From Chromatiales bacterium (GTDB lineage: Bacteria > Pseudomonadota > Gammaproteobacteria > Steroidobacterales > Woeseiaceae), in assembly GCA_024679535.1 (NCBI GenBank), contig JAIBDF010000016.1, forward strand, positions 1 through 37,804: a stretch of DNA of 37,804 bases, in the 5' to 3' direction. Shown piece after piece: positions 11,392 to 27,477 of this stretch. Position numbers and translations under genes: made by a program. Each line of letters begins with the position of its first letter. Positions within the stretch are counted from its first letter, which is position 1. The notes below the pieces were generated by a model. The model searched no databases. It saw nothing but the letters and a program-made list of their open reading frames with translations, and was not told the DNA's origin.

Positions 11392-12363
11392 TCAATCACC
11401 ACCCGTCCAGATGAGCGTGCCCAGCTCCGAGAGATCGTAGCCGCCGAGCGTCTTGACATGGCGGTGGCAGTCGCTGCCGCGCAGGTAGTCGAGCAAATGC
11501 TGGAACAGGCTGCGAAAGAAGATTCCACGGTGCAACGCGAGGTCAAACGCTTCCCAGCCGATCGAGAGGAAGTCGAGTCCGAATTCATTCGCGGAGGCAC
11601 GAATCCCCGGGGCAATCTCGGCCTGCCCAATTGCGATCAGCGACGCCGCTTCACGCTCGCTACCGGCGCGACCGGTGATGCGCCGGTCCGACGGGTCCAG
11701 GTCGTGCTGCGAGATCAGTTCGCGAATAAATCGTTGCGAACCGCCACCCTCCTGTCGTTCGACCCAGCGCACTTCCCGTCGAAACAGTCCTTCGATCCCG
11801 TCTTTGGCGGACCACAGGCCCGGCGAGACCAGCAAACCCTGCTCCCGCCGATACAACCGTACGAGGGCCCACTCACCGGCCTGCACGAATTGGCGCAGCA
11901 GCGCAGGATGGCGCTGGAAGCTCTCCGCCGCGGGCCCCCAGTGGACGCTGCAGACGTCGGCGCGCCGGTTGGCTAGCAGCGCGAGCCCAAGCTGGCTGCC
12001 GGTGGAGGTATAGCTGATCAGTGCACGGGATTGCAGTGACGTGGCAATCTGACTGAGAGCTCGATACAGCAGCGGGTCGTCGCTGCCGGCGATGACAATG
12101 CGGTCCGTCAGCAATCCGCCGTGACTGGATTCCAGCAGCCACTGGTCAACCAGATTGCGCGGAAACAGCCATTTGCCCGTCAGCTTGGTCGCAGGAATCT
12201 TGCCCTCTTGCACCAGTCCGTAAACTTTCTTTTCGTTGACCTGCAAATAAGCCGCCACCTGTTTCACCGTCATGAAGCTCGGCGGCGCGTCAGCGCGTTC
12301 CGCTGCTTCGTCGGAATTGCTTGTTCGCGCATTATCGACGCTGTTGGAGTTCGGCTTCACCAT
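11392..12363 (-). CDS. Excisionase-type HTH regulator fused to a periplasmic-binding-like domain
   Basis: A 323-residue protein. Residues about 31-76 form an excisionase/MerR-like HTH (MTVKQVAAYLQVNEKKVYG, then EGKIPATKLTGKWLFPRNLVD; HTH_17 type). Residues about 87-300 match the PBP_like ligand-binding domain that is related to molybdate/tungstate-binding proteins and sometimes fused to MoeA (IVIAGSDDPLL, YTSTGSQLGLALLANRRADVC, HWGPAAESF). No signal peptide is present, so the ligand is sensed in the cytoplasm. Between the cofactor operon, the formate dehydrogenase operon and tupBCA, it is a good candidate for a tungstate- or molybdate-responsive regulator taking the place of ModE. It is divergent from DUF3305, so it may control 12364-12549. 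It could equally sense formate; the ligand is not shown. Confidence 0.85.
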   Translation of the reverse strand: MVKPNSNSVDNARTSNSDEAAERADAPPSFMTVKQVAAYLQVNEKKVYGLVQEGKIPATKLTGKWLFPRNLVDQWLLESSHGGLLTDRIVIAGSDDPLLYRALSQIATSLQSRALISYTSTGSQLGLALLANRRADVCSVHWGPAAESFQRHPALLRQFVQAGEWALVRLYRREQGLLVSPGLWSAKDGIEGLFRREVRWVERQEGGGSQRFIRELISQHDLDPSDRRITGRAGSEREAASLIAIGQAEIAPGIRASANEFGLDFLSIGWEAFDLALHRGIFFRSLFQHLLDYLRGSDCHRHVKTLGGYDLSELGTLIWTGGD

Positions 12364-12549
12364 CGGGATTCCAGTTGCCGCAGTTGCCAGATTGGCCCAT
12401 GTACATACAGAAAGGCCGTTTCGGGACGATACGTCATCCGCGCAACCTGGTCACGGTTCATTGGCGTCGGCATGGTCTCTGCACACTGCGCGACTGGCCG
12501 CATCGTTAACATGACCGTTCTTTGATCGTTTAAGCTACTATTGATCGAA

Positions 12550-13032
12550 ATGAGCCTCGCAGAACGACACACGATAGCCGTAATCATGCAGCGCAGCCAG
12601 GTACAGCAGGGCCAATGGTCTGTGACGAGCTGGCGCGCAGTGTCTGTTGTCGCGGGCGAACATCTCGTCGGCAAGGGCGCCGGGCAGAAACCGATTTACG
12701 AAAACGACAGCGATGCCCAGTTCCTCTGGACCGGCTTTTCACTGGAGCTCTATCGGGACCAGGCCGAAGACTACTGGTACAACCTGACCGGTGACAGCCC
12801 GTCGCTGTTTGTTATCTGCCATGAATCGCCGGAAGGTGATCTGACGCCGTTTCGGGTCACCGCTGACCAGGATTCGGCATCCGGGTGCCTGGAAAGCGAC
12901 GACCAGGTATTCGCCGTGCCGATCCCGCCGGAAATATACCAGCGCCTCGAGCAATTCGTCGTGGCTCACTACGTTCCCCGCGAGCCAAAGAAACGCAGAC
13001 GCAAGAACTGGTCGCAGGAGACTGAAGGATGA
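12550..13032 (+). CDS. DUF3305 domain protein, formate dehydrogenase cluster
   Basis: A 160-residue protein matching DUF3305 (QQGQWSVTSWRAVSVVAGEH, LWTGFSLELYRDQAEDYWYNL, PSLFVICHE, VPIPPEIYQRLEQFVVAHY) with a basic tail (EPKKRRRKNW). It is soluble, with no signal peptide. In many proteobacteria, DUF3305 and DUF3306 genes precede the Fe-S protein, TorD-like chaperone and fdhXABC, as here, so a role in assembly of the membrane-bound formate dehydrogenase is likely but unproven. ATG 12550 is used; a TTG at 12541 is in frame. It overlaps the next gene by four bases (ATGA). It opens the rightward operon, and its promoter should be in 12364-12549. Confidence 0.85.
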   Translation: MSLAERHTIAVIMQRSQVQQGQWSVTSWRAVSVVAGEHLVGKGAGQKPIYENDSDAQFLWTGFSLELYRDQAEDYWYNLTGDSPSLFVICHESPEGDLTPFRVTADQDSASGCLESDDQVFAVPIPPEIYQRLEQFVVAHYVPREPKKRRRKNWSQETEG

Positions 13033-13655
13033 GCAACACCCCAGGCAAGCAAGCGCCGGGCAATAGTGCCGCGGACGTCGATACTCTTGAGAACGAGGCG
13101 TTTCTGACGCGCTGGTCGAAACGCAAGGCGCGGTCACGTGACGGCGTGGACTTGCCGGAACCGCTGGAAAACGCAGCGAGCGAGGACGAGACGGGTGCGC
13201 CCGGTGCCGCTGACACCAGCGGCGATGCACGGGCCGAAATCGCCGGACACGCCGACGGGCCGGTCGCGGATGCAGCGGAGACGACGCCCGAGTTACCACC
13301 CATCGAATCGCTGGGCGAGGACTCTGACTATCGCGCATTTCTTGCGGACCACGTACCGGCCGACGTGCAGCGCAAAGCGCTGCGCAAGTGGTTCCAAAGC
13401 CCCAAGTTCAACGTGCGCGACGGTCTCGATGACTACGACCTTGACTTCTCTTCGCCCGAGCCGCTCGGTGACATCGTGACGGCCGAGATGCGGCACCGCC
13501 TGCGCCAGGAACTCGAGCGCATGGTCGGACTCAATGACGACGAAGACAGCCCGCAGGACGTGATGCCGGCTGCGGCCGTCGAGGCTGTCGAAAGCGACAA
13601 CCCGGAAGAACCTGCTGACAACGAGCCAGACGATGAACCACCTGCAACTGCCTGA
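13029..13655 (+). CDS. DUF3306 domain protein, formate dehydrogenase cluster
   Basis: A 208-residue, strongly acidic protein. The N-terminus has the conserved FLTRWSKRKAR segment (about 19-29). A low-complexity Ala/Glu/Asp region follows, then the conserved core SDYRAFLADHVPADVQRKAL and KWFQSPKFNVRDGLDDYDLD (about 98-138), typical of DUF3306. The tail is again acidic and probably disordered. No enzymatic motif or membrane segment is visible. It is translationally coupled to DUF3305 (4-base overlap) and overlaps the following Fe-S protein gene by 23 bases, so the three products are probably made in fixed proportion and may act together in formate dehydrogenase maturation. Confidence 0.85.
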   Translation: MSNTPGKQAPGNSAADVDTLENEAFLTRWSKRKARSRDGVDLPEPLENAASEDETGAPGAADTSGDARAEIAGHADGPVADAAETTPELPPIESLGEDSDYRAFLADHVPADVQRKALRKWFQSPKFNVRDGLDDYDLDFSSPEPLGDIVTAEMRHRLRQELERMVGLNDDEDSPQDVMPAAAVEAVESDNPEEPADNEPDDEPPATA

Positions 13656-15303
13656 TACGACGGAGAACGGTCGGGCGAGAGCCGAGGCCCTGGATCCTCG
13701 CCATCGACCCGATGCGGCGCCGACGTCGACGGTCGAGTTTATCTCCCATGGGCGCGTGCTGATCGTCGGCGAGGAAAGGGGTGCGCTGTACGCGGCGCAA
13801 CAGCTCGACGACGATCTGGTGGCGACCGTTTGGGTGCCGGGAGACGCACGGCCTGCGACCGGCACCGTCGACGGGCTAACCATCGTGCGGGGCGGCCAGC
13901 CGCAACTCTCGGGAAACCTGGGTAATTTCAGGTTGAGCTTCCCTGCTTCGGACGATGGCAGCAATCCGGATGCAATAGCGACCCTCGAGAAAGCGCGCTT
14001 TGACCTGGTGCTCGACCTCAACGACTCGCCGATGCTCCCGCGGGAAGTGCTGCCGCCAGGCTATTACACGCCCGGCAGAGATGCCTACGCGCTGGAAGAG
14101 GCCATCGCCGAACTCCCCGACATGCGCGGCGAGTTCGAGAAACCGAAGTATTTCAATTTCGACCCGAACATCTGCGCACACGGGCGCCGCGGAATCAGCG
14201 GCTGCACCCGATGTCTCGATGTGTGCCCGACCCTGGCGATTAGATCGATTGGCGAAACCGTGCAGGTCGATGAAAACATCTGCCAGGGCTTCGGCAGCTG
14301 CGCATCGGTTTGCCCCACCGGTGCGATCACCTACGCCTTTCCCGGCACCCGCGATTTGCTGGCTTACCTGCGCACCGTTGTCATCCAGTATGGCGAAAGC
14401 GGCGGTGCCGATCCCGTGCTGCTGTTTTACGACGGCGCGTCCGCCGGCCTGATCGCCGACGAGTTCGCGCAGTCGCTGCCGGAGAATACGCTGCCCGTCG
14501 AGCTGGAGGAGGTGGGGTCCGCCGGCATGGATACCTGGTTCACGTGCCTCGCCTTTGGGGTGCGCCGGATCCTGGTTCTGACGGCAGCCGAGACGCCGCG
14601 GAGCGTCGCGGACGCGCTCGAGCGCGAGGTCGAAGTCAGCGCGCGGATTCTCGAGGGCATGGGTTACCCGGGCGCTGCGGTAGAGCTGATCGGCGCAGGG
14701 GATGTCAAGACCGTCACCGAGGCCGTGGGTTCCAAACAGTCGATCGATCTCGGCCGACCCGCACGCTTCGTCCCGCCTCCGGAGAAGCGCCTGTTGCTGC
14801 GTACCGCGATCAATCATCTCTTCGAGGAAGCGCCGACCCGCAAGAAGGTCGAACCATTGCCGGCAGGCGCACCGTTCGGCCGCATTCGCGTCGACAAGTC
14901 CGCGTGTACGGTGTGCATGAGCTGCGTCGCCGTCTGCCCGACGTCCGCACTGCGCGAGGGCCAGGGGTTGCCGCAGCTGAATTTCGTGGAATGGTCCTGC
15001 ATCCAGTGTGGGCTCTGCGAAACCGCCTGCCCCGAGGACGCGATAAAGTCCGAGCCACGATTCCTGTACGACGACGGCGAACGCAGCGCGCCGCGCCTGC
15101 TGCACGAAGAGCAACCCATGTGCTGCATTTCCTGCGGCAAGCCGTTCGCGACGCGCTCGATGCTCGACGCCATGAGGAAAAAGCTCGAGGGCCACTGGAT
15201 GTTCCAGAGCAAGGCCGAGCGGCGGCGCCTGGAAATGTGCGACATCTGCCGCGTAAAAGACATGATGCGCGACCAGGGCGGCGACGGTCCGCGATCGGCC
15301 TGA
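13633..15303 (+). CDS. Multi-cluster 4Fe-4S protein of the formate dehydrogenase cluster
   Basis: A 556-residue cytoplasmic protein with two ferredoxin-like modules. The first, about residues 175-240, has a C-rich motif around ISGCTRCLDVCPTLAI and ICQGFGSCASVCPTGAI. The second, about 420-475, has ACTVCMSCVAVCPTSAL and CIQCGLCETACPEDAI. Near the C-terminus, CCISCGKPF and CDICRVKDMM add two further Cys pairs that may bind zinc or an additional cluster. The middle (LLFYDGASAGLIADE, VRRILVLTAAET) resembles a domain seen in electron-transfer Fe-S proteins. The position between DUF3306 and the TorD-like chaperone is conserved in proteobacterial fdh clusters. A role as electron donor or scaffold in maturation is inferred; it is not one of the FdhABC subunits. 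Confidence 0.85.
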   Translation: MNHLQLPDTTENGRARAEALDPRHRPDAAPTSTVEFISHGRVLIVGEERGALYAAQQLDDDLVATVWVPGDARPATGTVDGLTIVRGGQPQLSGNLGNFRLSFPASDDGSNPDAIATLEKARFDLVLDLNDSPMLPREVLPPGYYTPGRDAYALEEAIAELPDMRGEFEKPKYFNFDPNICAHGRRGISGCTRCLDVCPTLAIRSIGETVQVDENICQGFGSCASVCPTGAITYAFPGTRDLLAYLRTVVIQYGESGGADPVLLFYDGASAGLIADEFAQSLPENTLPVELEEVGSAGMDTWFTCLAFGVRRILVLTAAETPRSVADALEREVEVSARILEGMGYPGAAVELIGAGDVKTVTEAVGSKQSIDLGRPARFVPPPEKRLLLRTAINHLFEEAPTRKKVEPLPAGAPFGRIRVDKSACTVCMSCVAVCPTSALREGQGLPQLNFVEWSCIQCGLCETACPEDAIKSEPRFLYDDGERSAPRLLHEEQPMCCISCGKPFATRSMLDAMRKKLEGHWMFQSKAERRRLEMCDICRVKDMMRDQGGDGPRSA

Positions 15304-15486
15304 TCTCGGCGCGGCCACGCGCAGGTAGCGCTTCTTCAGGATGGAGCAAAATGTCGCATATTTTGGATGTTATCGCTCTCATATAGTCATTATCACGGTA
15401 TTAAATGTATTTCACACCACTGGCGGCCGATGGCGGAATGGGTCTAAAATGACCGGGTGCCAGGGGGGCACGCAGAGCCGAGAAAA

Positions 15487-16134
15487 ATGAGCGAAGCGTC
15501 TGCAACATGTGAAACGACGACAGCGGGGGCTGGCGTCGTAACAATCGAGCCGGAAAACAAGCTGCGCGCAGACACCTATCGACTGCTCGGCCGCCTGCTG
15601 GGCACGCCACCGGATGACGCCACTCTCGCGCGGCTGTCAACAGCGCCGACAAGCGAAGAAGACAACCTGCTGGCTGTGGCCTGGCGGCTGCTGGCGACAT
15701 CAGCCGGGCGCACCGTCGCAAACCAGGTGGCAAGCGAATACGAGGCGCTTTTTATCGGGCTCGGCCGCGGCGAACTGGTGCCGTACGCCTCGTGGTACCT
15801 GACCGGCTACCTGATGGAGCAACCACTCGCCCAGCTGCGTTCCGACATGAGGGAACTCGGCTTCGAACGTCGGGACAACGTCAGCGAGCCGGAGGACCAC
15901 GCCGCGGCGCTTTGCGAAATCATGGCACTACTCGCCGGCGACGACGAACCCGGCAGCCTCGAAACGCAGACGCAGTTTTTTGAAAACCACGTCGGGCCGT
16001 GGATCGCCCGATTCTTCCGTGACATGCAGCAGGCACCTTCGGCGCACTTCTACAGGGCCGTGGGTCAGCTTGGAGAGCAATTCATCGAAACGGACCAACG
16101 ATACCTGGAAATGGTGGATCGAACGGACACCTGA
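15487..16134 (+). CDS. TorD/DmsD-family chaperone for formate dehydrogenase
   Basis: A 215-residue all-helical protein of the TorD family, which binds a Tat signal peptide and holds the apo-catalytic subunit until cofactor insertion. The family core YEALFIGLGRGELVPYASWYLTG (about 86-108) and the segment EPEDHAAALCEIMALL (about 136-151) are clear. ATG 15487 is chosen over the longer frame from 15457 because the upstream codons are not conserved-looking. A 183-base AT-rich gap precedes it, and such a gap could hold an internal promoter; I see no convincing -35/-10 pair. It lies just before fdhX and fdhA, whose Tat signals are the probable clients. Confidence 0.9.
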   Translation: MSEASATCETTTAGAGVVTIEPENKLRADTYRLLGRLLGTPPDDATLARLSTAPTSEEDNLLAVAWRLLATSAGRTVANQVASEYEALFIGLGRGELVPYASWYLTGYLMEQPLAQLRSDMRELGFERRDNVSEPEDHAAALCEIMALLAGDDEPGSLETQTQFFENHVGPWIARFFRDMQQAPSAHFYRAVGQLGEQFIETDQRYLEMVDRTDT

Positions 16135-16410: not shown

Positions 16411-19323
16411 ATGAAGCTGATCAAGAAGCGAGACCTCACCGCCACCGAGACAAACAGCGTAGCAAGTAACATTCTCGGCTCCGCAGTAGACCGCCGCACC
16501 TTCCTGCGCCGCGCGAGCCTTGGCCTCGGCGGCACCGCAGTGGCCGCGACACTGCCCACGACAATGATTCAACGCGCGGAGGCCACCTCGGCCGTCGGCG
16601 CCGAGGGTGATACCGAAATCCGGAAATCCGTCTGCACGCACTGTTCCGTTGGCTGCGGCGTTGTTGCCGAAGTGCAAAACGGCGTCTGGACCGGTCAGGA
16701 ACCGGACTTCGATTCACCGTTCAACATGGGTGGCCATTGCGCCAAAGGCGCGTCAGTGCGTGAGCATGGCCACGGTGAACGACGACTCAAGTATCCGATG
16801 AAGCTCGAGGGCGGCAAGTGGACTCGCGTTTCCTGGGAACAGGCGCTCGACGAGATCGGCGACAAGGTGCTCGACATCCGCAAACGCTCTGGCCCCGACT
16901 CGGTGTACTGGCTGGGCTCCGCCAAGTTCAGCAACGAGCAGGCGTACCTGTTCCGCAAGTTCGCGGCCCTGTGGGGCACCAATAACGTTGATCATCAGGC
17001 GCGGATTTGTCACTCGACGACCGTTGCGGGCGTAGCCAATACCTGGGGCTATGGCGCAATGACCAACTCGTACAATGACATGCATAACTGCAAGGCGATG
17101 TTCTTTATCGGAAGCAACGCCGCAGAGGCACACCCGGTTGCTATGCAGCACGTGCTGCGGGGTAAGGAGAACGGCGCGAAGATGATCGTCGTTGATCCGC
17201 GCTTTACGCGCACGGCCGCGCACGCTGACCAGTTCATCCGTATCCGGCCCGGCACCGATGTGCCACTGATCTGGGGCATGCTCTGGCACATTTTCGAGAA
17301 TGGCTGGGAGGACAAGAAGTACATAGGGCAGCGTGTCTACGGCATGGATGAGGTCCGCGCCGAAGTCGCGAAGTGGACGCCGGACGTCGTCGAGAACGTT
17401 TCGGGCGTACCGGGTGCCGACGTCGAGCTTGCGGCCAAGACAATGGCCGAGAATCGCCCCGGCACGATCGTCTGGTGCATGGGTGGTACCCAGCACACGA
17501 TCGGCAACAACAACACGCGCGCCTACTGTGCACTGCAGCTTGCGCTCGGCAACATCGGCGTGTCGGGCGGCGGCGCCAACATCTTCCGCGGCCACGATAA
17601 TGTCCAGGGCGCCACGGATCTCGGCATCCTCTCGCACACACTGCCGGGTTACTACGGGCTCGCCGAGGGTTCATGGAAGCACTGGGCCCGGGTCTGGGAT
17701 CTCGATTTCGACTGGGTCAAAGATCGCTTCGACACCGGTTATGTCGACACGTCGGGTGACGTCGAGGGAGGCGATGCGGCGGTGCCATTCGCCAACCCGA
17801 TGAACTCGGCCGGCATCCCCGTCTCACGCTGGGTCGACGGCGTCCTCGAGGACAGCCGACTGATCGACCAGCGCGACCAGCTCAAGGCGATGTTCTTCTG
17901 GGGTCATGCACCGAACAGTCAGACTCGCGGTCCGGAGATGAAGACGGCGCTCGAGACGCTGGAACTTGTCGTCGTCGTCGATCCGTATCCGACGCATACG
18001 GCCGTCCTGCCAGACCGGAAGGAGGGCATGTACCTGCTGCCGGCCGCGACTCAGTTCGAGACCTACGGCTCGGTTACTGCATCGAACCGCTCGCTGCAGT
18101 GGCGCGACAAGCTCATCGACCCGATGTTCGAGTCATTGCCCGACCACACGATCATGTACAAACTCTCGAAGAAACTGGAATTCTCCGACCAGCTATTCAA
18201 GGCCATCAAGGTTAAGAACGATGAACCGCTGGTCGAGGATATTCTGCGCGAGATCAATCGAGGCATGTGGACTATCGGCTATACGGGCCAAAGCCCCGAG
18301 CGTCTCAAGCTGCACATGGCCAACAAGCACACCTTCAACGTGACAACGCTGAAGGCTGAAGGCGGACCGTGTGACGGGGACTACTATGGGTTGCCATGGC
18401 CAAGCTGGGGCACACCAGAGTTAAAGCATCCGGGAACACCGGTGCTGTACGACACGAGCAAACACGTTGCCGATGGCGGCCTCAATTTCCGGGCGCGGTT
18501 CGGGGTCGAGCGCAACGGCGTCAACCTGCTTGCAGAGGACTCTTACAGCAAGGGCGCCGAGATCACCGACGGTTACCCGGAATTCACGGCAGACATGCTG
18601 AAGCAACTGGGCTGGTGGGACGATCTCACCGCCGAGGAAAAACAGGCAGCCGAGGGCAAGAACTGGAAGACCGACCTTTCTGGCGGTATCCAGCGTGTAG
18701 CGATCAAGCACGGTTGCGCGCCGTTCGGTAACGCCAAGGCCCGTTGCGTAGTCTGGACGTTCCCGGATCCGGTGCCGGTGCATCGCGAACCGCTCTACAC
18801 TTCGCGTCGCGACCTCGTCGACAAATACCCGACGTACGAGGACGTCAAGAGCCATTACCGTCTGCCGACGCGTTATGGGTCGATCCAGGCCAAGGATTAT
18901 TCGGTCGAGTACCCGCTGATCCACACCAGCGGGCGATTGGTCGAGTACGAGGGAGGCGGCGAGGAGAGCCGCTCCAACGCCTGGCTCGCGGAGCTGCAAC
19001 AAGAGATGTTCGCCGAGATCAATCCAGCCGACGCCAACGACGCGAACATACGCGACGGTCAGTGGATGTGGCTGGAGGGTCCCGAGGGAGGCAGAATCAA
19101 GATCAGGGCCATGATCACGCCGCGGGTGGACCGGGGCGTTGTATTCACGCCATTCCACTTCGGCGGCTGGTTCGAAGGAAAGGACCTGCTTGATAAATAT
19201 CCGGAGGGCGCCGCACCGTATGTACGCGGTGAGGCCGCTAACACGGCTTTCACCTACGGTTATGACTCCGTCACGCAAATGCAGGAAACGAAAGCTTCCC
19301 TTTGCAAGATCATCGCAGCCTAG
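16411..19323 (+). CDS. fdhA: Formate dehydrogenase catalytic subunit FdhA (Tat-exported, Cys type)
   Basis: A 970-residue molybdopterin oxidoreductase that oxidises formate to CO2 in the periplasm. The Tat signal VDRRTFLRRASLG (about 26-38) is followed by the proximal 4Fe-4S cluster ligands C75, C78, C82 and C110 (CTHCSVGC ... GGHCAKG). The active-site metal ligand is Cys200 followed by His201 (ARICHSTTV), encoded by TGT, so this is a cysteine rather than selenocysteine enzyme. The bis-MGD binding regions and the C-terminal barrel domain (IHTSGRLVEYEGGGEESRSN onwards) are complete. The start has GGGGGATTAG upstream. Linkage to tupBCA suggests tungsten in the active site; the sequence does not decide the metal. 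Confidence 0.97.
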   Translation: MKLIKKRDLTATETNSVASNILGSAVDRRTFLRRASLGLGGTAVAATLPTTMIQRAEATSAVGAEGDTEIRKSVCTHCSVGCGVVAEVQNGVWTGQEPDFDSPFNMGGHCAKGASVREHGHGERRLKYPMKLEGGKWTRVSWEQALDEIGDKVLDIRKRSGPDSVYWLGSAKFSNEQAYLFRKFAALWGTNNVDHQARICHSTTVAGVANTWGYGAMTNSYNDMHNCKAMFFIGSNAAEAHPVAMQHVLRGKENGAKMIVVDPRFTRTAAHADQFIRIRPGTDVPLIWGMLWHIFENGWEDKKYIGQRVYGMDEVRAEVAKWTPDVVENVSGVPGADVELAAKTMAENRPGTIVWCMGGTQHTIGNNNTRAYCALQLALGNIGVSGGGANIFRGHDNVQGATDLGILSHTLPGYYGLAEGSWKHWARVWDLDFDWVKDRFDTGYVDTSGDVEGGDAAVPFANPMNSAGIPVSRWVDGVLEDSRLIDQRDQLKAMFFWGHAPNSQTRGPEMKTALETLELVVVVDPYPTHTAVLPDRKEGMYLLPAATQFETYGSVTASNRSLQWRDKLIDPMFESLPDHTIMYKLSKKLEFSDQLFKAIKVKNDEPLVEDILREINRGMWTIGYTGQSPERLKLHMANKHTFNVTTLKAEGGPCDGDYYGLPWPSWGTPELKHPGTPVLYDTSKHVADGGLNFRARFGVERNGVNLLAEDSYSKGAEITDGYPEFTADMLKQLGWWDDLTAEEKQAAEGKNWKTDLSGGIQRVAIKHGCAPFGNAKARCVVWTFPDPVPVHREPLYTSRRDLVDKYPTYEDVKSHYRLPTRYGSIQAKDYSVEYPLIHTSGRLVEYEGGGEESRSNAWLAELQQEMFAEINPADANDANIRDGQWMWLEGPEGGRIKIRAMITPRVDRGVVFTPFHFGGWFEGKDLLDKYPEGAAPYVRGEAANTAFTYGYDSVTQMQETKASLCKIIAA

Positions 19324-19334
19324 GAGACACGATC

Positions 19335-19928
19335 ATGGCACGAATGAAATTCCTATGTGACGCCGAACGCTGCATCGAATGCAATGGTTGCGTAACGGCC
19401 TGCAAGAACGAGCATGAGGTTCCCTGGGGCGTCAACCGACGTCGCGTCGTCACTCTCGATGACGGTGTCCCCGGCGAAAAATCAATCTCGGTAGCCTGCA
19501 TGCACTGCACGGACGCGCCCTGCGCGGCCGTCTGCCCGGTCGACTGTTTCTACACGACTGACGACGGCATCGTATTGCACGACAAGGACCTCTGCATCGG
19601 CTGCGGCTATTGCTTCTATGCCTGTCCTTTCGGCGCACCGCAGTTCCCGCAGCAAGAGGCGTTCGGCGTACGCGGCAAGATGGACAAATGCACGTTCTGC
19701 GCCGGCGGCCCCGAGGAAGACAACTCCGCGGCCGAGCTTGAGAAATATGGCGCCAACCGGTTGGCCGAGGGCAAGTTGCCGCTCTGTGCGGAGATGTGCA
19801 GCACGAAGGCGCTGCTGGCCGGCGATGGCGACGAAGTCGCGGACATCTACCGCGATCGCATCACGAAGCGCGGCGGTCGCCCTGAGACCTGGGGCTGGGA
19901 TACCGCGTACAAGAAGAGCGACGTCTGA
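19335..19928 (+). CDS. fdhB: Formate dehydrogenase iron-sulfur subunit FdhB
   Basis: A 197-residue ferredoxin-like subunit that carries electrons from FdhA to the cytochrome b subunit. Four 4Fe-4S cluster motifs can be read: CIECNGCVTACKNEHEVP near the N-terminus, CMHCTDAPCAAVCPVDCF, CIGCGYCFYACPFGAPQFP, and a split group KCTFCAGG with CAEMCSTKAL. It has no signal peptide and is expected to be exported together with FdhA by the Tat system. ATG 19335 is preferred, with GGAG upstream overlapping the end of fdhA; the gap to fdhA is 11 bases. The length is that of the short FdhB type without a C-terminal membrane anchor. Confidence 0.96.
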   Translation: MARMKFLCDAERCIECNGCVTACKNEHEVPWGVNRRRVVTLDDGVPGEKSISVACMHCTDAPCAAVCPVDCFYTTDDGIVLHDKDLCIGCGYCFYACPFGAPQFPQQEAFGVRGKMDKCTFCAGGPEEDNSAAELEKYGANRLAEGKLPLCAEMCSTKALLAGDGDEVADIYRDRITKRGGRPETWGWDTAYKKSDV

Positions 19929-20090: not shown

Positions 20091-20163
20091 CCAGGCCAGT
20101 CCGTATTAGCGAATGAACGCCGCGTGCCCGCCAGGGTCGCGGCGCAAATTAGGAGCCTGGTCA

Positions 20164-21234
20164 ATGCGCGCACAAACAATCACTAGGAAACCCCGGAGCC
20201 GTCGTCGTATCGCCCTCGTCACGGTCGCACTGTCGCTGTTGCTGGCTATGGCGTTACCGTTGACCGGCTACATCGCACACGATGCGGGCCTGGCGTGGGC
20301 CCAGTCTGACGACGCCGAAAAAGAGGCCGTCAATTCGCGCTCCGAGTATTGGCGCGCCGTACGCCAGGGAACGGAAGGCTATTCCTCGGTATCGGGTCCT
20401 GAAGCCGGCGTTCTGATCCAGAGCGGCGGCGAGGACTGGCGCAATTTGCGCAGCGGTCCCTTGAAATTTTTCGGCGGGTCGTTGCTGATCGCCGTGCTCA
20501 TTGCGATCCTCGTGAATCATCTGGTCAGGGGCAAGGATATGATCGACTCGCCGACCGGCCGCAAGATCAATCGCTGGAGTGGCTTCGATCGTGCCCTGCA
20601 CTGGTACGTCGGTATCACGTTCATCATCCTCTCGATCACAGGCCTGAGTCTGCTGTTCGGACGAGCGTTGCTGATCCCCTTGCTGGGCAAGGAAGGCTTC
20701 GCTGCCTGGGCGCAGCTGTCCAAGCCTGTACACGACTATCTGGCCCTGCCGTTCATTGTTGGCTTCGCACTAATGCTGCTCATCTGGATTCCGAGGAACT
20801 TTCTGCGGAGCCATGACTTCGCGTGGCTCAAGTCCGTGGGCGGCATAGTCGGCAAGGATCATCATCCGCAAGCCGGCTACATGAACGGCGGCGAGAAGGT
20901 ATTCTTCTGGATCCTGTTCTTCGGCGGCATTGCACTGATGGTGTCAGGCTTCTACCTGCTGTTCCCGAACCTGGGTTGGGAGCGGGAAACGATGCAGCTG
21001 TCGCATATCGTGCACTCGGCCAGCGGCTTGTTCCTGATCGGCATCTCGCTCGGCCACATTTACCTCGGCAGCATCGGTGTCGAAGGCGTGCTCGAGGGCA
21101 TGGTGCGCGGCGAAGTCGATGAGGGCTTCGCGAAGCAACACCACAACCTGTGGTACGACGAAGTCAAAGGCGTCGCCCCTCCTCAAGAGGGCTCCGCGGC
21201 GCCGGACGTTTCGGGCGCAACGCCGACGACCTAG
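20164..21234 (+). CDS. fdhC: Formate dehydrogenase cytochrome b subunit FdhC
   Basis: A 356-residue membrane protein that takes electrons from FdhB and passes them to quinone. An N-terminal signal or anchor segment (about residues 15-40) and a periplasmic stretch of about 70 residues precede a fifth hydrophobic segment (SLLIAVLIAILVNHLV) and the four-helix cytochrome b core. Likely haem ligands are the histidines in ALHWYVG, KPVHDYLALP, LSHIVHSASG and SLGHIYLG. ATG 20164 has AGGAG 9 bases upstream. The long N-terminal extension is typical of the Shewanella/Wolinella type of gamma subunit. It is followed by a hairpin (21264-21294) that may end the main operon transcript. Confidence 0.95.
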   Translation: MRAQTITRKPRSRRRIALVTVALSLLLAMALPLTGYIAHDAGLAWAQSDDAEKEAVNSRSEYWRAVRQGTEGYSSVSGPEAGVLIQSGGEDWRNLRSGPLKFFGGSLLIAVLIAILVNHLVRGKDMIDSPTGRKINRWSGFDRALHWYVGITFIILSITGLSLLFGRALLIPLLGKEGFAAWAQLSKPVHDYLALPFIVGFALMLLIWIPRNFLRSHDFAWLKSVGGIVGKDHHPQAGYMNGGEKVFFWILFFGGIALMVSGFYLLFPNLGWERETMQLSHIVHSASGLFLIGISLGHIYLGSIGVEGVLEGMVRGEVDEGFAKQHHNLWYDEVKGVAPPQEGSAAPDVSGATPTT

Positions 21235-22065: not shown

Positions 22066-22809
22066 CTAACAGGCCTTGGTCCGCGTGTATTCACTCATTG
22101 ACCAGACGACCGTCGTATCCCTGGCCTCGCGCCGGATGTCGTCGCGCTTGTGTGCGAGCGACACCTGGAGGCCGAACTCGGTGAGAAAACGCTCAAACAT
22201 ACTGCCGCCGTAGACACCCGTCGCGAACAGCGCCTGCTCATCGGGGTCGTAGTCGAGATGCACTGCTGCGAGCGGTTGTGGAGCGGGTCCCGACAGGACG
22301 CGCGCGCCTTCGCGGGGATCGTAGACGCTGCCCTCCGAGCAACAGTAAATCACCTGTCCGCGGCTCCGCCAGCCGCTACTGGTGTTCGACGGCGACATGG
22401 GCTGGTGCCGATAATCGATGAAGCTCACGGTTCGTGTCGGGTAGCTCATGCGATGCGCACAAATTGCTGAAAACGCCACGATCGAACGGCCCGGCCCGGC
22501 CCCGCCCGCCCAACGGTACGCACGGCCGTCTGCGGTGGTCAGCTCGGCGCCCGGCTCCGCCGGAGACCCGAGGTTGATCAGGAAACAGGGGGTAGTGACA
22601 TAGGGATAATGAAAGACAAAGCTTTCGCCAATGGCCAGGCTTCCGGGATCAAGCGCCTTTCCGTCGGAATCAACAAGCCTAACGCGCTCTGCCGGGATCA
22701 GCTCCCCAGCCGGCTCGGCAACCAGGGCCGGGTTGGCGGCTACGGCAGCGCCTGCGCCGACGCAGATCTTGAGAAATTTCCGTCTGTCGAATGAACTGGA
22801 GTCAGGCAT
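22066..22809 (-). CDS. Tat-exported Rieske-like [2Fe-2S] protein with altered ligand motif
   Basis: A 247-residue protein with a Tat signal (FDRRKFLKICVGAGAAVA, about 7-24) and a Rieske-like domain. The first cluster motif is normal, C117-A-H119 (SAICAHRMSYP). The second reads C156-C157-S-E159-G-S (VIYCCSEGSVYDP), where the usual second histidine (C-x2-H-G-S) is replaced by Glu. I checked the codons on the minus strand (TGT TGC TCG GAG). The Pro-loop-like SGPAPQPLAAVHLDYD follows as in true Rieske proteins. The protein may hold a cluster with unusual ligation, or none. It is divergent from tupB and convergent with the ankyrin gene, so its link to formate or tungstate metabolism is uncertain. 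Confidence 0.8.
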   Translation of the reverse strand: MPDSSSFDRRKFLKICVGAGAAVAANPALVAEPAGELIPAERVRLVDSDGKALDPGSLAIGESFVFHYPYVTTPCFLINLGSPAEPGAELTTADGRAYRWAGGAGPGRSIVAFSAICAHRMSYPTRTVSFIDYRHQPMSPSNTSSGWRSRGQVIYCCSEGSVYDPREGARVLSGPAPQPLAAVHLDYDPDEQALFATGVYGGSMFERFLTEFGLQVSLAHKRDDIRREARDTTVVWSMSEYTRTKAC

Positions 22810-22922
22810 CCTGTGTTACCTAAATCGATATCGGGCGCGGTTATAGCCAGATAGTAGCAAAACGGGCGATGGTTCGTTGCTGGCGTTCCAAACGGGCATC
22901 TGAAAGAATGATGCTTTGCATC

Positions 22923-22952
22923 CTCATGCGTACCGGATTGCGCACGCATGAG
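22923..22952. promoter_or_regulatory. 9-bp dyad in the tupB / Rieske divergent region (operator candidate)
   Basis: CTCATGCGT and ACGCATGAG form a perfect inverted repeat with a 12-base spacer, giving a 21-base centre-to-centre distance, two turns of the helix. It lies 43 bases before the tupB start and 114 bases before the Rieske start. A tungstate-responsive regulator, possibly the HTH-PBP protein in this window, is a candidate binder. A direct repeat AACGGGC at 22861-22867 and 22891-22897 lies in the same region. Confidence 0.4.
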
Positions 22953-22994
22953 ACGATTTGGGGGCACCGCAGGCCTTGTGATCGTTTTTCTAAT

Positions 22995-23699
22995 ATGAAC
23001 GAATCCTCGTCAGCAATCGGCACGGCGTTGTCGATGATTGCCACGCTCGACGCCGACTTGTTCGAGATCGTCTTGCTCTCGCTGCAGGTCAGCCTGGGTG
23101 CGGTCGCGATCGCGTCGGTCATTGCGCTGCCGCTGGGGGCGCTCATTGCGCTGCAGAGATTCCCCGGCCGGCGGGCCGTTGTCATTCTCCTCAATGCGAT
23201 GATGGGGCTGCCACCCGTAGTCGTCGGCCTGATGGTCTACGTTTTGTTGTCGCGCGCCGGACCGCTCGGGTCGATGGGCCTGCTGTTCACGCCCACCGCG
23301 ATGGTTATCGCGCAGAGCATCATCGTGCTGCCGATCATTGCGGCGCTGTCGCGGCAGACGATCGCCGACCTGCACGAGGAATATGGCGAGTACCTGCGGT
23401 CGCTCGGTTGTACGCCGATGCAGAGCATCGCGACGTTGCTCTGGGACGGGCGTTTTCGATTGCTGACCGCCATCATGGCAGGCTTCGGCAGGGCCATTGC
23501 CGAGGTTGGCGCCGTCATTATCGTCGGAGGCAACATCCAGCATTCGACCCGGGTGATGACGACGACCATTGCGCTGGAAACGAGCAAGGGCAACCTTGCC
23601 CTCGCGCTTGGACTCGGCGTAATGCTTCTGACCCTTGCCCTGAGCATTAACGCGGCGGCGCTGGTCATTTCCGATACCGCGAGGCGGCGTTATGGCTGA
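22995..23699 (+). CDS. tupB: Tungstate ABC transporter permease TupB
   Basis: A 234-residue inner-membrane permease. It has about five hydrophobic helices, and the conserved permease loop contacting the ATPase reads ADLHEEYGEYLRSLGCTPMQSIATLLWDGRF (residues about 121-151). The overall sequence (LQVSLGAVAIASVIALPLGA, GLPPVVVGLMVYVLLSR, IAEVGAVIIVGGNIQ) matches TupB rather than ModB. ATG 22995 is chosen because residues before it do not belong to the family. It overlaps tupC by 8 bases. The order here is tupB-tupC-tupA, not the usual tupA-first order. With TupA and TupC, it imports tungstate for the cofactor of the formate dehydrogenases. Confidence 0.92.
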   Translation: MNESSSAIGTALSMIATLDADLFEIVLLSLQVSLGAVAIASVIALPLGALIALQRFPGRRAVVILLNAMMGLPPVVVGLMVYVLLSRAGPLGSMGLLFTPTAMVIAQSIIVLPIIAALSRQTIADLHEEYGEYLRSLGCTPMQSIATLLWDGRFRLLTAIMAGFGRAIAEVGAVIIVGGNIQHSTRVMTTTIALETSKGNLALALGLGVMLLTLALSINAAALVISDTARRRYG

Positions 23700-24468
23700 C
23701 GGCGCACCGCACACCGAAGCCCGCGAGTACGAACAGCGAGATTCGATTGCCAAACACCCGCTGCTGCCGCTCGTTGCCCGGGGAGTGGATTTCGGGATCA
23801 ATGGCCAGCGAATCATTGACGATGTGTCGTTCTGGATAGGCTCGAGCGGACGGACCGTCATCCTCGGCCCTAACGGGGCTGGCAAAAGCGTCATGCTGCG
23901 CCTGTGTCATGGCCTCCTCAAGCCCACCCGCGGAGAAATTCGCTGGGGCGACATGTCGGTAGCCGATGCGCGCGAGCAACAGGCGATGACGTCTCAAAAA
24001 CCGGTAATGCTGCGGCGCACGGGCAACGACAACCTGCTGCACGTACTGAGGGTGAAAGGCGTGCCCCTGGGTGAGCGCCAGGCCCTCGTCGATGCTGCCC
24101 TGGAGCAGGCAGGACTGACCGACCTTGGCGGGCGGGCCGCCCGCGATCTTTCCGGCGGACAACAGCAACGGCTGGCGATTGCGCGGGCGTTCGTTCTCAA
24201 ACCCAAGGTGCTGCTGCTGGACGAACCCACCGCAAATCTCGACCCCGCCGCCGTGCGGGGCGTCGAGGAACTGATCGGTGCCATCGGCGCCGCCGGCACC
24301 AAGATACTGATGACGACACACGACATCGCCCAGGCAAAGCGGCTCGCCGCGGACGTCATGTTTCTCAACCAGGGCCGGCTGCTCGAGCACGCGCCGGCGA
24401 TGGAGTTCTTCTCATCGCCAAAAGACCCCGAGGCCGCGCGTTTTCTCGCCGGCGAACTACCGGCCTGA
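23692..24468 (+). CDS. tupC: Tungstate ABC transporter ATPase TupC
   Basis: A 258-residue ABC ATPase. Walker A is GPNGAGKS (59-66), the signature is LSGGQQQR (153-160), Walker B is VLLLDEP (173-179) and the switch histidine is H210 (MTTHD). All catalytic motifs are intact. It overlaps tupB by 8 bases and is followed by tupA after 47 bases. The N-terminal 25 residues before the domain are longer than usual and polar; an internal start is possible but no better ribosome site is seen. Substrate assignment rests on its TupA and TupB partners. Confidence 0.92.
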   Translation: MADGAPHTEAREYEQRDSIAKHPLLPLVARGVDFGINGQRIIDDVSFWIGSSGRTVILGPNGAGKSVMLRLCHGLLKPTRGEIRWGDMSVADAREQQAMTSQKPVMLRRTGNDNLLHVLRVKGVPLGERQALVDAALEQAGLTDLGGRAARDLSGGQQQRLAIARAFVLKPKVLLLDEPTANLDPAAVRGVEELIGAIGAAGTKILMTTHDIAQAKRLAADVMFLNQGRLLEHAPAMEFFSSPKDPEAARFLAGELPA

Positions 24469-24515
24469 CTTGTGATGACGCATTTTCCTCAGCGCTCCAC
24501 GGGATAAAGCCGAAC

Positions 24516-25373
24516 ATGCGCAGCAAGACGAATTCTTCTCCAACCACGTTCACGCGCCTGGTGGCGGCGCTTGTCCTGGGCGTCCTGGCCATCGCGAGTG
24601 CGGCACTCGGTGAACCGCGCTCGATCATCGTCGCGTCGACGACATCCACGCAAAACTCGGGCCTTTTCGCCTGGTTGCTGCCGCAATTCACGGCGGAGAC
24701 CGGCATTGATGTCAAGGTCGTCGCGGTCGGCACCGGTCAGGCCATACGTATCGCGACGAACGGCGATGCCGACCTGTTGCTGGTTCACCATGAAGCATCC
24801 GAACGAAAGTTTGTTTCTGACGGGCTGGGTCTCGCGCGCCACCCGATCATGCACAACGATTTTGTACTCGTAGGGCCTGTCGCCGATCCCGCCGGCGTCC
24901 GCGGTATGAGCGAAATCACGGTGGCGTTGCGGCGTATTGCCGAGAGCGAGCAGATATTCGTATCGCGCGGCGACGACAGCGGCACTCACAAGAAAGAACT
25001 CGAGATCTGGACCGCCAGCGGTTTCGATCCCCGCCCGGCGAGCGGCTCATGGTACCGCGAGGCGGGCTCGGGCATGGGGGCAACCCTCAATACCAACGGC
25101 GCCATGGGAGGGTACACGCTCAGCGACCGGGCGAGCTGGGTAAGCTTCGGTAACAAGGGAGACATGGAGATACTCCTCGAAGGCGACCCGCCCCTGAACA
25201 ATCCCTACGCGGCCATCGTCGTCAACCCTGAACGACACCCGCACGTGCGGGTCAGGGAGGCCCAGGCTTTCGTGGATTGGCTTACGTCAGCACGGGGACA
25301 GGCCGCGATTGCTACGTTTCGCGTCGACGGCCAGCTGCTGTTCTTTCCAGATGTTGTGCCGGACGGGGTGTAG
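24516..25373 (+). CDS. tupA: Tungstate-binding periplasmic protein TupA
   Basis: A 285-residue substrate-binding protein with a signal peptide (about 1-32, RLVAALVLGVLAIASAALG). The oxyanion-binding motif STTSTQNSG (41-49) and the later RGDDSGTH are the hallmarks of TupA; molybdate-binding ModA lacks this TTSTQ-type start. Further family segments are VAVGTGQAIRIATNGDADLLLVH, HNDFVLVGP and GMGATLNTNGAMGGYTLSDRA. TupA proteins bind tungstate with very high preference over molybdate, which is the main reason to expect tungsten in the formate dehydrogenases of this locus. It is followed after 9 bases by an outer-membrane barrel gene, which makes co-transcription nearly certain. Confidence 0.94.
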   Translation: MRSKTNSSPTTFTRLVAALVLGVLAIASAALGEPRSIIVASTTSTQNSGLFAWLLPQFTAETGIDVKVVAVGTGQAIRIATNGDADLLLVHHEASERKFVSDGLGLARHPIMHNDFVLVGPVADPAGVRGMSEITVALRRIAESEQIFVSRGDDSGTHKKELEIWTASGFDPRPASGSWYREAGSGMGATLNTNGAMGGYTLSDRASWVSFGNKGDMEILLEGDPPLNNPYAAIVVNPERHPHVRVREAQAFVDWLTSARGQAAIATFRVDGQLLFFPDVVPDGV

Positions 25374-26946: not shown

Positions 26947-27477
26947 ATGAAATTCCAATTGCGTTGTACACTGCTCCTGACCGGCTGCGCCCTCGCGGCC
27001 ACGGCCTATGCTGACGAAATCCGTATCGACATTCACGCCATCAGCGCCGACGGCGTCGGCGAATCGGTCGGCACCGTCACCGCGACCGACGGCGAGAACG
27101 GCCTGACGCTGACGCCGGACCTGGCAGGGCTGCCGACCGGCGAGCACGGTTTCCACATCCACCAGAATCCGAGCTGCGACCCGGCCGAGAAGGAAGGCTC
27201 CATGGTGGCCGGTCTCTCAGCGGGCGGTCATTACGACCCCGAGGGCACCAGCGTGCATAAGGGCCCGCAGGCCGAAGGCGGTCATCTAGGCGATCTGCCC
27301 AAGCTGGTCGTCGCCGATGACGGTACTGCAACGACACCCGTTATGGCGCCGAGGCTGACAGTCGCCGACATCAATGGACGTGCGATGATGATTCACGCCC
27401 ACGGCGACAACTACAGCGACGATCCGAAACCTCTCGGGGGTGGCGGTGCCCGCATCGCCTGCGGCGTCATCAAGTAG
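26947..27477 (+). CDS. sodC: Cu/Zn superoxide dismutase SodC
   Basis: A 176-residue periplasmic enzyme with a signal peptide (about 1-22). Copper and zinc ligands are readable: H70 and H72 (GFHIHQNPSC), H95 (GGHYDP), a later zinc His in VHKGPQAEGGHLGD with the Asp of GHLGD, and H150 (MMIHAHGDNYSD). The disulfide pair is probably C77-C172. The start has CAGGGGAGAACCTGACG upstream. A possible -10 element (TATACT, 26899-26904) lies 42 bases before the ATG, so it may have its own promoter. It dismutates superoxide in the periplasm, perhaps protecting the oxygen-sensitive exported formate dehydrogenase; that link is only inferred from position. It is convergent with fdsA, 13 bases apart. Confidence 0.94.
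   Translation: MKFQLRCTLLLTGCALAATAYADEIRIDIHAISADGVGESVGTVTATDGENGLTLTPDLAGLPTGEHGFHIHQNPSCDPAEKEGSMVAGLSAGGHYDPEGTSVHKGPQAEGGHLGDLPKLVVADDGTATTPVMAPRLTVADINGRAMMIHAHGDNYSDDPKPLGGGGARIACGVIK

Follow-up and report, generated by a model that had tools for sequence, protein, structure and literature searches.

A Rieske-fold protein family with an acidic residue at the place of the second cluster histidine, often encoded near formate dehydrogenase genes

What becomes of a Rieske-type cluster site when a glutamate stands where the second ligand histidine is expected, and which enzyme might such a protein serve? In this study we follow up a gene that raises this question in a Chromatiales bacterium of the family Woeseiaceae (GenBank assembly GCA_024679535.1, contig JAIBDF010000016.1). 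The whole stretch of 37,804 nucleotides that was analysed is called the window below. A sequence-only reading of this DNA had described a Rieske-like protein with an intact C117-x-H119 and a second motif reading C-C-S-E-G-S, and the sequence is exactly so. The gene and its motifs are as follows (rows refer to the family alignments described below):

22066..22809, minus strand: gene of the Rieske-fold protein, acidic (Glu) type; 247 amino acids, ATG start, 0 internal stops
22780..22785, minus strand: R9-R10 of the Tat-like N-terminus; RR in 17/17 rows of family alignment A1
22453..22461, minus strand: first cluster motif, C117-A-H119; Cys and His in 36/36 family rows
22327..22344, minus strand: second cluster motif, C156-C157-S158-E159-G160-S161; C156, C157 and S161 in 36/36 rows
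22333..22335, minus strand: codon of E159, which stands where the second His ligand is expected, by alignment to SoxF and AioB and by the tree
22321..22323, minus strand: codon of Y163; Tyr in 31/32 acidic rows
22279..22290, minus strand: loop G174-P175-A176-P177; GPA in 36/36 rows, P177 in 25/32 acidic rows
22069..22071, minus strand: C247, the C-terminal cysteine; 36/36 rows

Fold and export of the protein

Judged from its sequence and a predicted model, the window protein is a Rieske-fold protein, because it matches SoxF and AioB in sequence and its AlphaFold2 model matches such proteins in structure. With phmmer it matched SoxF (1jm1) at 1.8e-12 and AioB at 6.5e-7, and with a 17-row family profile the SoxF match rose to 1.4e-16. 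The AlphaFold2 model, made from a 15-row alignment, has a mean pLDDT of 77.2 (64 for residues 241-247) and a pTM of 0.75. Its best structural match is AioB (Z 15.5, rmsd 2.1, 128 residues aligned; Foldseek 2.1e-8), and SoxF is matched with Z 12.8 and rmsd 3.5 over 164 residues; the nitrite reductase small subunits 3c0d and 4aiv are also among the structural matches (Z 8.6). HMMER alignments to SoxF and AioB place C156 on a ligand cysteine, C157 on a proline, S158 on a disulfide cysteine and E159 on the second histidine ligand, which bears out the earlier claim that a glutamate occupies the place of the second cluster histidine.

Beyond the fold, the window protein shares with AioB (1g8j/1g8k, 4aay) the C-x-H motif and a GGVGP segment in the alignment, but AioB has C-x-x-H and two histidine ligands where the window protein has glutamate. 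The best sequence matches of the protein are Sulfolobus SoxF and SoxL2 (TIGR03171); PCFL and GPAPxPL-like segments are common to it and SoxF. SoxF has a normal C-x-x-H and, unlike the family, a proline at the place of C157, and the aligned stretch stops before C247. On curated models the window protein scored 84.6 bits for SoxL2 (TIGR03171, below the cut-off of 582.1) and 40.8 bits for AioB (TIGR02694, below the cut-off of 95.65). A Pfam search found no domain in the window protein, and at E 0.01 the Pfam Rieske model PF00355 matched 0/17 members of A1; a weak Tat signal in two of the members was all that the search returned there. PF00355 was matched by 3/4 rows of the family that have histidine at position 159 (one score being 20.9 bits against a cut-off of 20.3), here called His-type rows.

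The protein is, from its N-terminal sequence, probably periplasmic and exported by the Tat system; its mature form would span about residues 32-247. It had been argued beforehand that a Tat signal implies a cofactor folded before export. This argument carries modest weight, as the RR pair is conserved throughout A1 but the Pfam Tat model gives a weak match in 2/17 members only. At the other end of the chain C247 is the last residue of the protein; in one homologue (L030) a single glycine follows this cysteine.

The acidic position and its history in the family

Homologues were taken from 14 loci in genome contigs, from 5/60 genomes near that of the window (strong matches), from 18/369 class genomes and from 4/398 phylum genomes, the window's own genome being included in each of the three genome sets. 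A sixth match in the 60 near genomes (L006, E 4e-5) is a weak canonical Rieske protein and was left out of the family. Once duplicates had been taken out, the family alignment had 36 rows, with 31 distinct acidic and 4 distinct His-type sequences, the window protein among them. L012 and L021 are one contig, given as two rows in the tree and the residue counts and counted once among the 31 loci. L013 and L063 are the same locus, as are L012 and L045, and each was counted once. Left out were L002 (the same protein as L007), L004 (the same as L013), L039 (which repeats the window gene) and L038 (a second view of the L037 gene), and L034 is a partial row whose N-terminal part lies in another frame. 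The closest named relative is L007, from a Woeseiaceae metagenome bin (96% identity). Among the 32 acidic rows identity averages 48% over all pairs and is 31% at its lowest. A tblastn search of 72,556 plasmid records with the window protein gave zero matches, and the idea of a plasmid-borne family was rejected.

All 36 rows have the first Rieske motif C-x-H. The second, C-x-x-H, is replaced in 32/36 rows, position 159 being E in 30 (including the window protein), D in 2 and H in 4. The second motif of the window protein continues as C156-C157-S158-E159-G160-S161-V-Y163-D, and that of the His-type rows reads CCAHGS twice, CCLHGS and CCAHAS. Invariant in 36/36 rows are C117, H119, C156, C157, S161, D164, G174-P175-A176 and C247. 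Residue 120, which adjoins H119, is R or K in 31/32 acidic rows and Q once; in the four His-type rows it is L, L, Q and A. Position 158 is S in 29/32 acidic rows and A in 3, against A, A, A and L in the His-type rows. Only at S158, E159 and G202 do at least 85% of the acidic rows agree on a residue that is absent from all His-type rows. Invariance of CCSE had been named as a point to check in homologues: in the acidic rows it nearly holds, with E in 30/32 and D in 2/32 at position 159 and S in 29/32 at 158, and four family rows have histidine. Position 160 varies in the acidic rows (G 10, H 8, K 7, R 5, Q 1, N 1). A shifted CxxH, C157-S-E-H160, was considered and rejected: it occurs in 8/32 acidic rows only, hence it is not the family's ligand.

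The disulfide cysteines of bc1-type Rieske proteins lie in CxHxGC and CxCH. The family, unlike those proteins, has no cysteine at the corresponding positions 122 and 158, which are S, T, V, A or L in 36/36 rows. The canonical disulfide cysteines are gone, and C157 and the C-terminal cysteine are invariant instead. The 36-row alignment was also searched for a Cys or His that the acidic clade had acquired as a substitute for the lost histidine, and none was found.

A tree was made of 42 rows, comprising the 36 family rows, 4 outgroup rows that are AioB-like in appearance and 2 distant Rieske rows, the latter on very long branches and of unsure placement. The 32 acidic rows lie on one side of one branch (support 99/99.7), and the four His-type homologues fall outside the acidic clade; the branching order among them is not resolved by the tree. 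Rooted on the outgroup, the tree makes histidine the ancestral state and its replacement a single event; inside the clade there are changes between Glu and Asp, but no row reverts to His. Comparison of the window gene with five close relatives gives dN/dS values of 0.06-0.24, the lowest coming from pairs near synonymous saturation, and the gene is under purifying selection.

Neighbouring genes and co-occurrence

The genes around the Rieske-fold gene in the window are:

12541..16134, plus strand: DUF3305, DUF3306, 4Fe-4S protein and NarJ/TorD-type chaperone of the formate dehydrogenase (FDH) locus; upstream of the FDH genes
16411..19323, plus strand: FDH alpha subunit (molybdopterin); Fdh-alpha model 469 bits, below the cut-off of 666
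19302..19928, plus strand: FDH3 beta subunit (4Fe-4S); NF038355 349.6 bits, above the cut-off of 240 (window protein only)
20113..21234, plus strand: FDH gamma subunit (cytochrome b); TIGR01583 174.2 bits, cut-off 115.85; PF01292
21150..22058, plus strand: ankyrin-repeat protein (Pfam Ank); convergent (tail-to-tail) with the Rieske-fold gene, stop codons 7 bp apart
22869..25373, plus strand: ABC transporter genes (permease, ATPase, TupA-like binding protein); TupA model 212.3 bits, below the cut-off of 400

The order is thus FDH alpha, beta and gamma, then the ankyrin-repeat gene, then the Rieske-fold gene on the opposite strand. Operons of similar make-up, dmsD-fdhGHI with DUF3305 and DUF3306, are on record in an excerpt of PMC4464133. 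The window's FDH alpha subunit scored 70.8 on the arsenite oxidase large-subunit model, below the cut-off of 359; in contrast to AioB, the enzyme linked to the window protein is therefore formate dehydrogenase and not arsenite oxidase. The ABC transporter on the other side of the Rieske-fold gene probably carries tungstate, and a molybdenum-cofactor radical-SAM gene is also found in the window. At 11392-12363 (minus strand) an excisionase-type helix-turn-helix is fused to a domain that resembles the C-terminal portion of a molybdopterin biosynthesis protein, and the product may regulate the FDH locus in response to molybdate or tungstate. Near the Rieske-fold gene of several distant loci we also noted a Cu/Zn superoxide dismutase gene (window 26947-27477; L015:5620-6096; L019:870-1358; L046:9450-9941).

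Among the 31 distinct acidic loci, the window included, FDH genes were found in 20 and ankyrin genes in 20, either in 23, both in 17 and neither in 8; the flanks are unequal in length and some contigs short, and the counts were checked by script. L047 enters the FDH count through a gamma-subunit match that is partial (44% over 132 residues), and a 4Fe-4S match in L017 (40% identity, 103 residues) is left uncounted; with it the numbers would be 21 for FDH and 24 for FDH or ankyrin. The 8/31 loci with neither gene in their flanks count against formate dehydrogenase as the partner. A 184-residue protein with no Pfam or NCBIfam match (L014:3881-4432) and a biotin/lipoate ligase-like protein (L014:5193-5948) recur beside the FDH, ankyrin and Rieske-fold genes, with matches among L048, L049, L050, L058, L059 and L061.

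The setting of the four His-type members (L056, L057, L060 and L066/L142) is different. They have the same architecture, with C157 and the C-terminal cysteine, and are 30-46% identical to acidic members, but in addition to the histidine at 159 they differ in that a gene for a flavoprotein like flavocytochrome c sulfide dehydrogenase or sulfide:quinone reductase (FCSD/SQR-like) lies directly upstream on the same strand in 4/4 loci (L056:5198-7181, L057:5624-7784, L060:2323-4389, L142:5641-7767). Such a gene was found in 0/31 acidic loci, and FDH or ankyrin genes in the flanks of 0/4 His-type loci. The flavoprotein of L060 matches Pfam FCSD models and the other three are 61-70% identical to it. 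L142 has a second FCSD/SQR-like flavoprotein downstream. The flavoprotein gene upstream in all four loci suggests that the His-type protein stands in for the usual cytochrome c partner.

Across the class, FDH-alpha (E 1e-200 or better) was found in 46/369 genomes, namely in 13/15 carriers of the acidic type, 0/3 carriers of the His type and 33/351 other genomes. Fisher's test gives p 3e-11 (13/15 vs 33/354), although the genomes are related and the true weight is less. The two acidic-type carriers without FDH-alpha have genomes 72% and 85% complete, and in two of the 13 with both (G165, G213) the genes lie on different contigs or at a great distance from each other. When 36 genomes (own included) were searched for both genes, the same 4 carried both. 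The protein as an obligate FDH subunit was rejected, as 33/46 FDH-bearing genomes gave no match to it, in a search that scores only some first-look candidates per genome and could miss a few Rieske-fold genes. In 20 of these 33 genomes we looked for an ankyrin gene downstream of FDH and found it in 0/20 loci, four of the 20 stretches ending 0.1-3 kb past the gamma gene. Since no FDH locus of this control, which had no Rieske-fold gene, had an ankyrin gene, the latter seems to be tied to the Rieske-fold gene rather more closely than to FDH.

Proposed cluster, alternatives and meaning

The reading that we favour is that the window protein works in the periplasm as an accessory redox partner or sensor of formate dehydrogenase and that its Rieske fold carries a [2Fe-2S] cluster with Cys2-His-Glu ligation; on the sequence evidence our confidence in this reading as a whole lies somewhat below even. 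Its parts differ. That a cluster is present we consider rather likely, and we argue for it because the ligands, the Ser/Tyr pair and the GPA loop are kept; in Rieske proteins the residues that stand where S161 and Y163 are form hydrogen bonds, to a sulfur of the cluster and to a cysteine ligand, according to an excerpt of PMC12954380. That Glu159 is a ligand is a close call that falls just short of even. Carboxylate ligation with charge balance is argued for because of the strict acid at 159 and the basic residue beside the remaining histidine. By analogy to Rieske geometry we assume that Cys117 and Cys156 would bind one iron, and His119 and Glu159, in place of two histidines, the other; R or K at 120 would balance the extra negative charge of the acid. 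The anionic glutamate in place of a neutral histidine would lower the potential and part of the proton coupling would be lost. Both changes would be in keeping with an accessory protein that carries electrons for, or senses the redox state of, an enzyme working at low potential, as formate dehydrogenase does. Ser and Tyr at the conserved places usually make the potential higher, however, and so offer no simple fit to a low-potential role. The function as carrier or sensor of a periplasmic FDH/ankyrin module we infer only from genetic linkage.

As to the history, the His-type members behind sulfide-dehydrogenase-like flavoproteins would represent the ancestral setting, and the change from histidine to acid would have happened once, alongside a move to the formate dehydrogenase and ankyrin-protein locus. 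A C157-C247 disulfide would replace the lost canonical one. For these cysteines a replacement disulfide is probably the better explanation than extra ligation, since both are present also in the four His-type rows with their normal 2Cys/2His set. The full account, in which a natural Rieske-fold Cys2-His-Glu cluster arose once from Cys2-His2, with charge balance from Arg/Lys by the remaining histidine, a relocated disulfide and a change of partner from flavoprotein to formate dehydrogenase, is put forward tentatively, as a proposal that we would sooner doubt than assume.

Other explanations of the site have to be weighed. With one histidine lost, the cluster may be weakened or left with a water or hydroxide ligand, and the fourth ligand of a [2Fe-2S] cluster could also be Cys157 or Cys247 (3Cys/1His, mitoNEET-like), Glu159 being merely nearby. 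The invariance of both cysteines would fit, and the histidine at 160 in 8/32 acidic rows could give C157-x-x-H160. However, both cysteines are equally invariant in the four His-type rows, so they were not gained to replace the histidine, position 160 varies as given above, and water leaves the restriction of 159 to Glu or Asp unexplained; we regard such ligation as unlikely. A similarly low probability attaches to a single metal ion, Zn or Fe, bound by Cys-His-Cys-Glu, the protein then serving the formate dehydrogenase locus in structure, metal handling or maturation. Rieske loops resemble zinc-ribbon and rubredoxin knuckles, these four residues could form such a site, and the NarJ-type chaperone, DUF3305/3306 and the molybdenum-cofactor radical-SAM gene of the window would agree with maturation, but S161 (32/32) and Y163 (31/32) are kept in the acidic rows and a zinc site would have no need of them.

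The cluster might also have been lost, leaving a binding or assembly factor as in nitrite reductase small subunits of the NirD type, which have a Rieske fold with altered ligand positions. NirD lacks the Cys and His cluster ligands, and 3c0d and 4aiv, presumably without a cluster, are among the structural matches of the model; one ligand and the canonical disulfide are gone in the window protein as well. Unlike in NirD, three of the four ligands (C117, H119, C156) are invariant in 36/36 rows and the fourth is acidic, and these ligands with their second shell are conserved in 31 distinct sequences of 48% mean pairwise identity (32 rows). As the remaining residues that bind or tune a cluster have been retained, a site with nothing in it is the less likely case, and we consider loss of the cluster improbable. 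Chance or a decaying mutation in one genome is very hard to credit, and nothing was found in its favour: the gene is not decaying, because Glu or Asp is found clade-wide and dN/dS is well below 1. The sequence-only reading had held that homologues with a normal CxxH would make the glutamate a single mutation in a dying gene; four such homologues exist, but outside the well-supported acidic clade.

For the proposed Cys2-His-Glu cluster a natural parallel is known in RsrR of Streptomyces venezuelae, a [2Fe-2S] protein with two Cys, one His and one Glu, in which Glu and His are on different irons (excerpt of PMC12499515), unlike in our proposal; RsrR is moreover an unrelated protein, a transcription regulator of the Rrf2 superfamily (excerpt of PMC5015018). 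With ligation of the RsrR kind go g values of about 2.00, 1.92 and 1.87 (average 1.93), and with Rieske clusters 2.02, 1.90 and 1.80 (1.91), as given in PMC12499515. Among the matches listed in a search of open-access titles and abstract beginnings we found no Rieske protein from nature in which Glu or Asp is a ligand and no such gene beside formate dehydrogenase; most subscription papers were outside this scope, and absence is unproven. Replacement of Rieske ligands has been studied mainly in laboratory mutants. Ligation by two Cys and two His sets Rieske clusters apart and adds to their high potential, as stated in an excerpt of PMC12954380. Standard domain models miss the acidic family, as the Pfam Rieske result for A1 demonstrates. 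If our proposal is true, the formate dehydrogenase locus would gain an unrecognised component, and the family would offer a natural experiment on how ligand charge acts on potential and proton coupling, with living His-type relatives for comparison.
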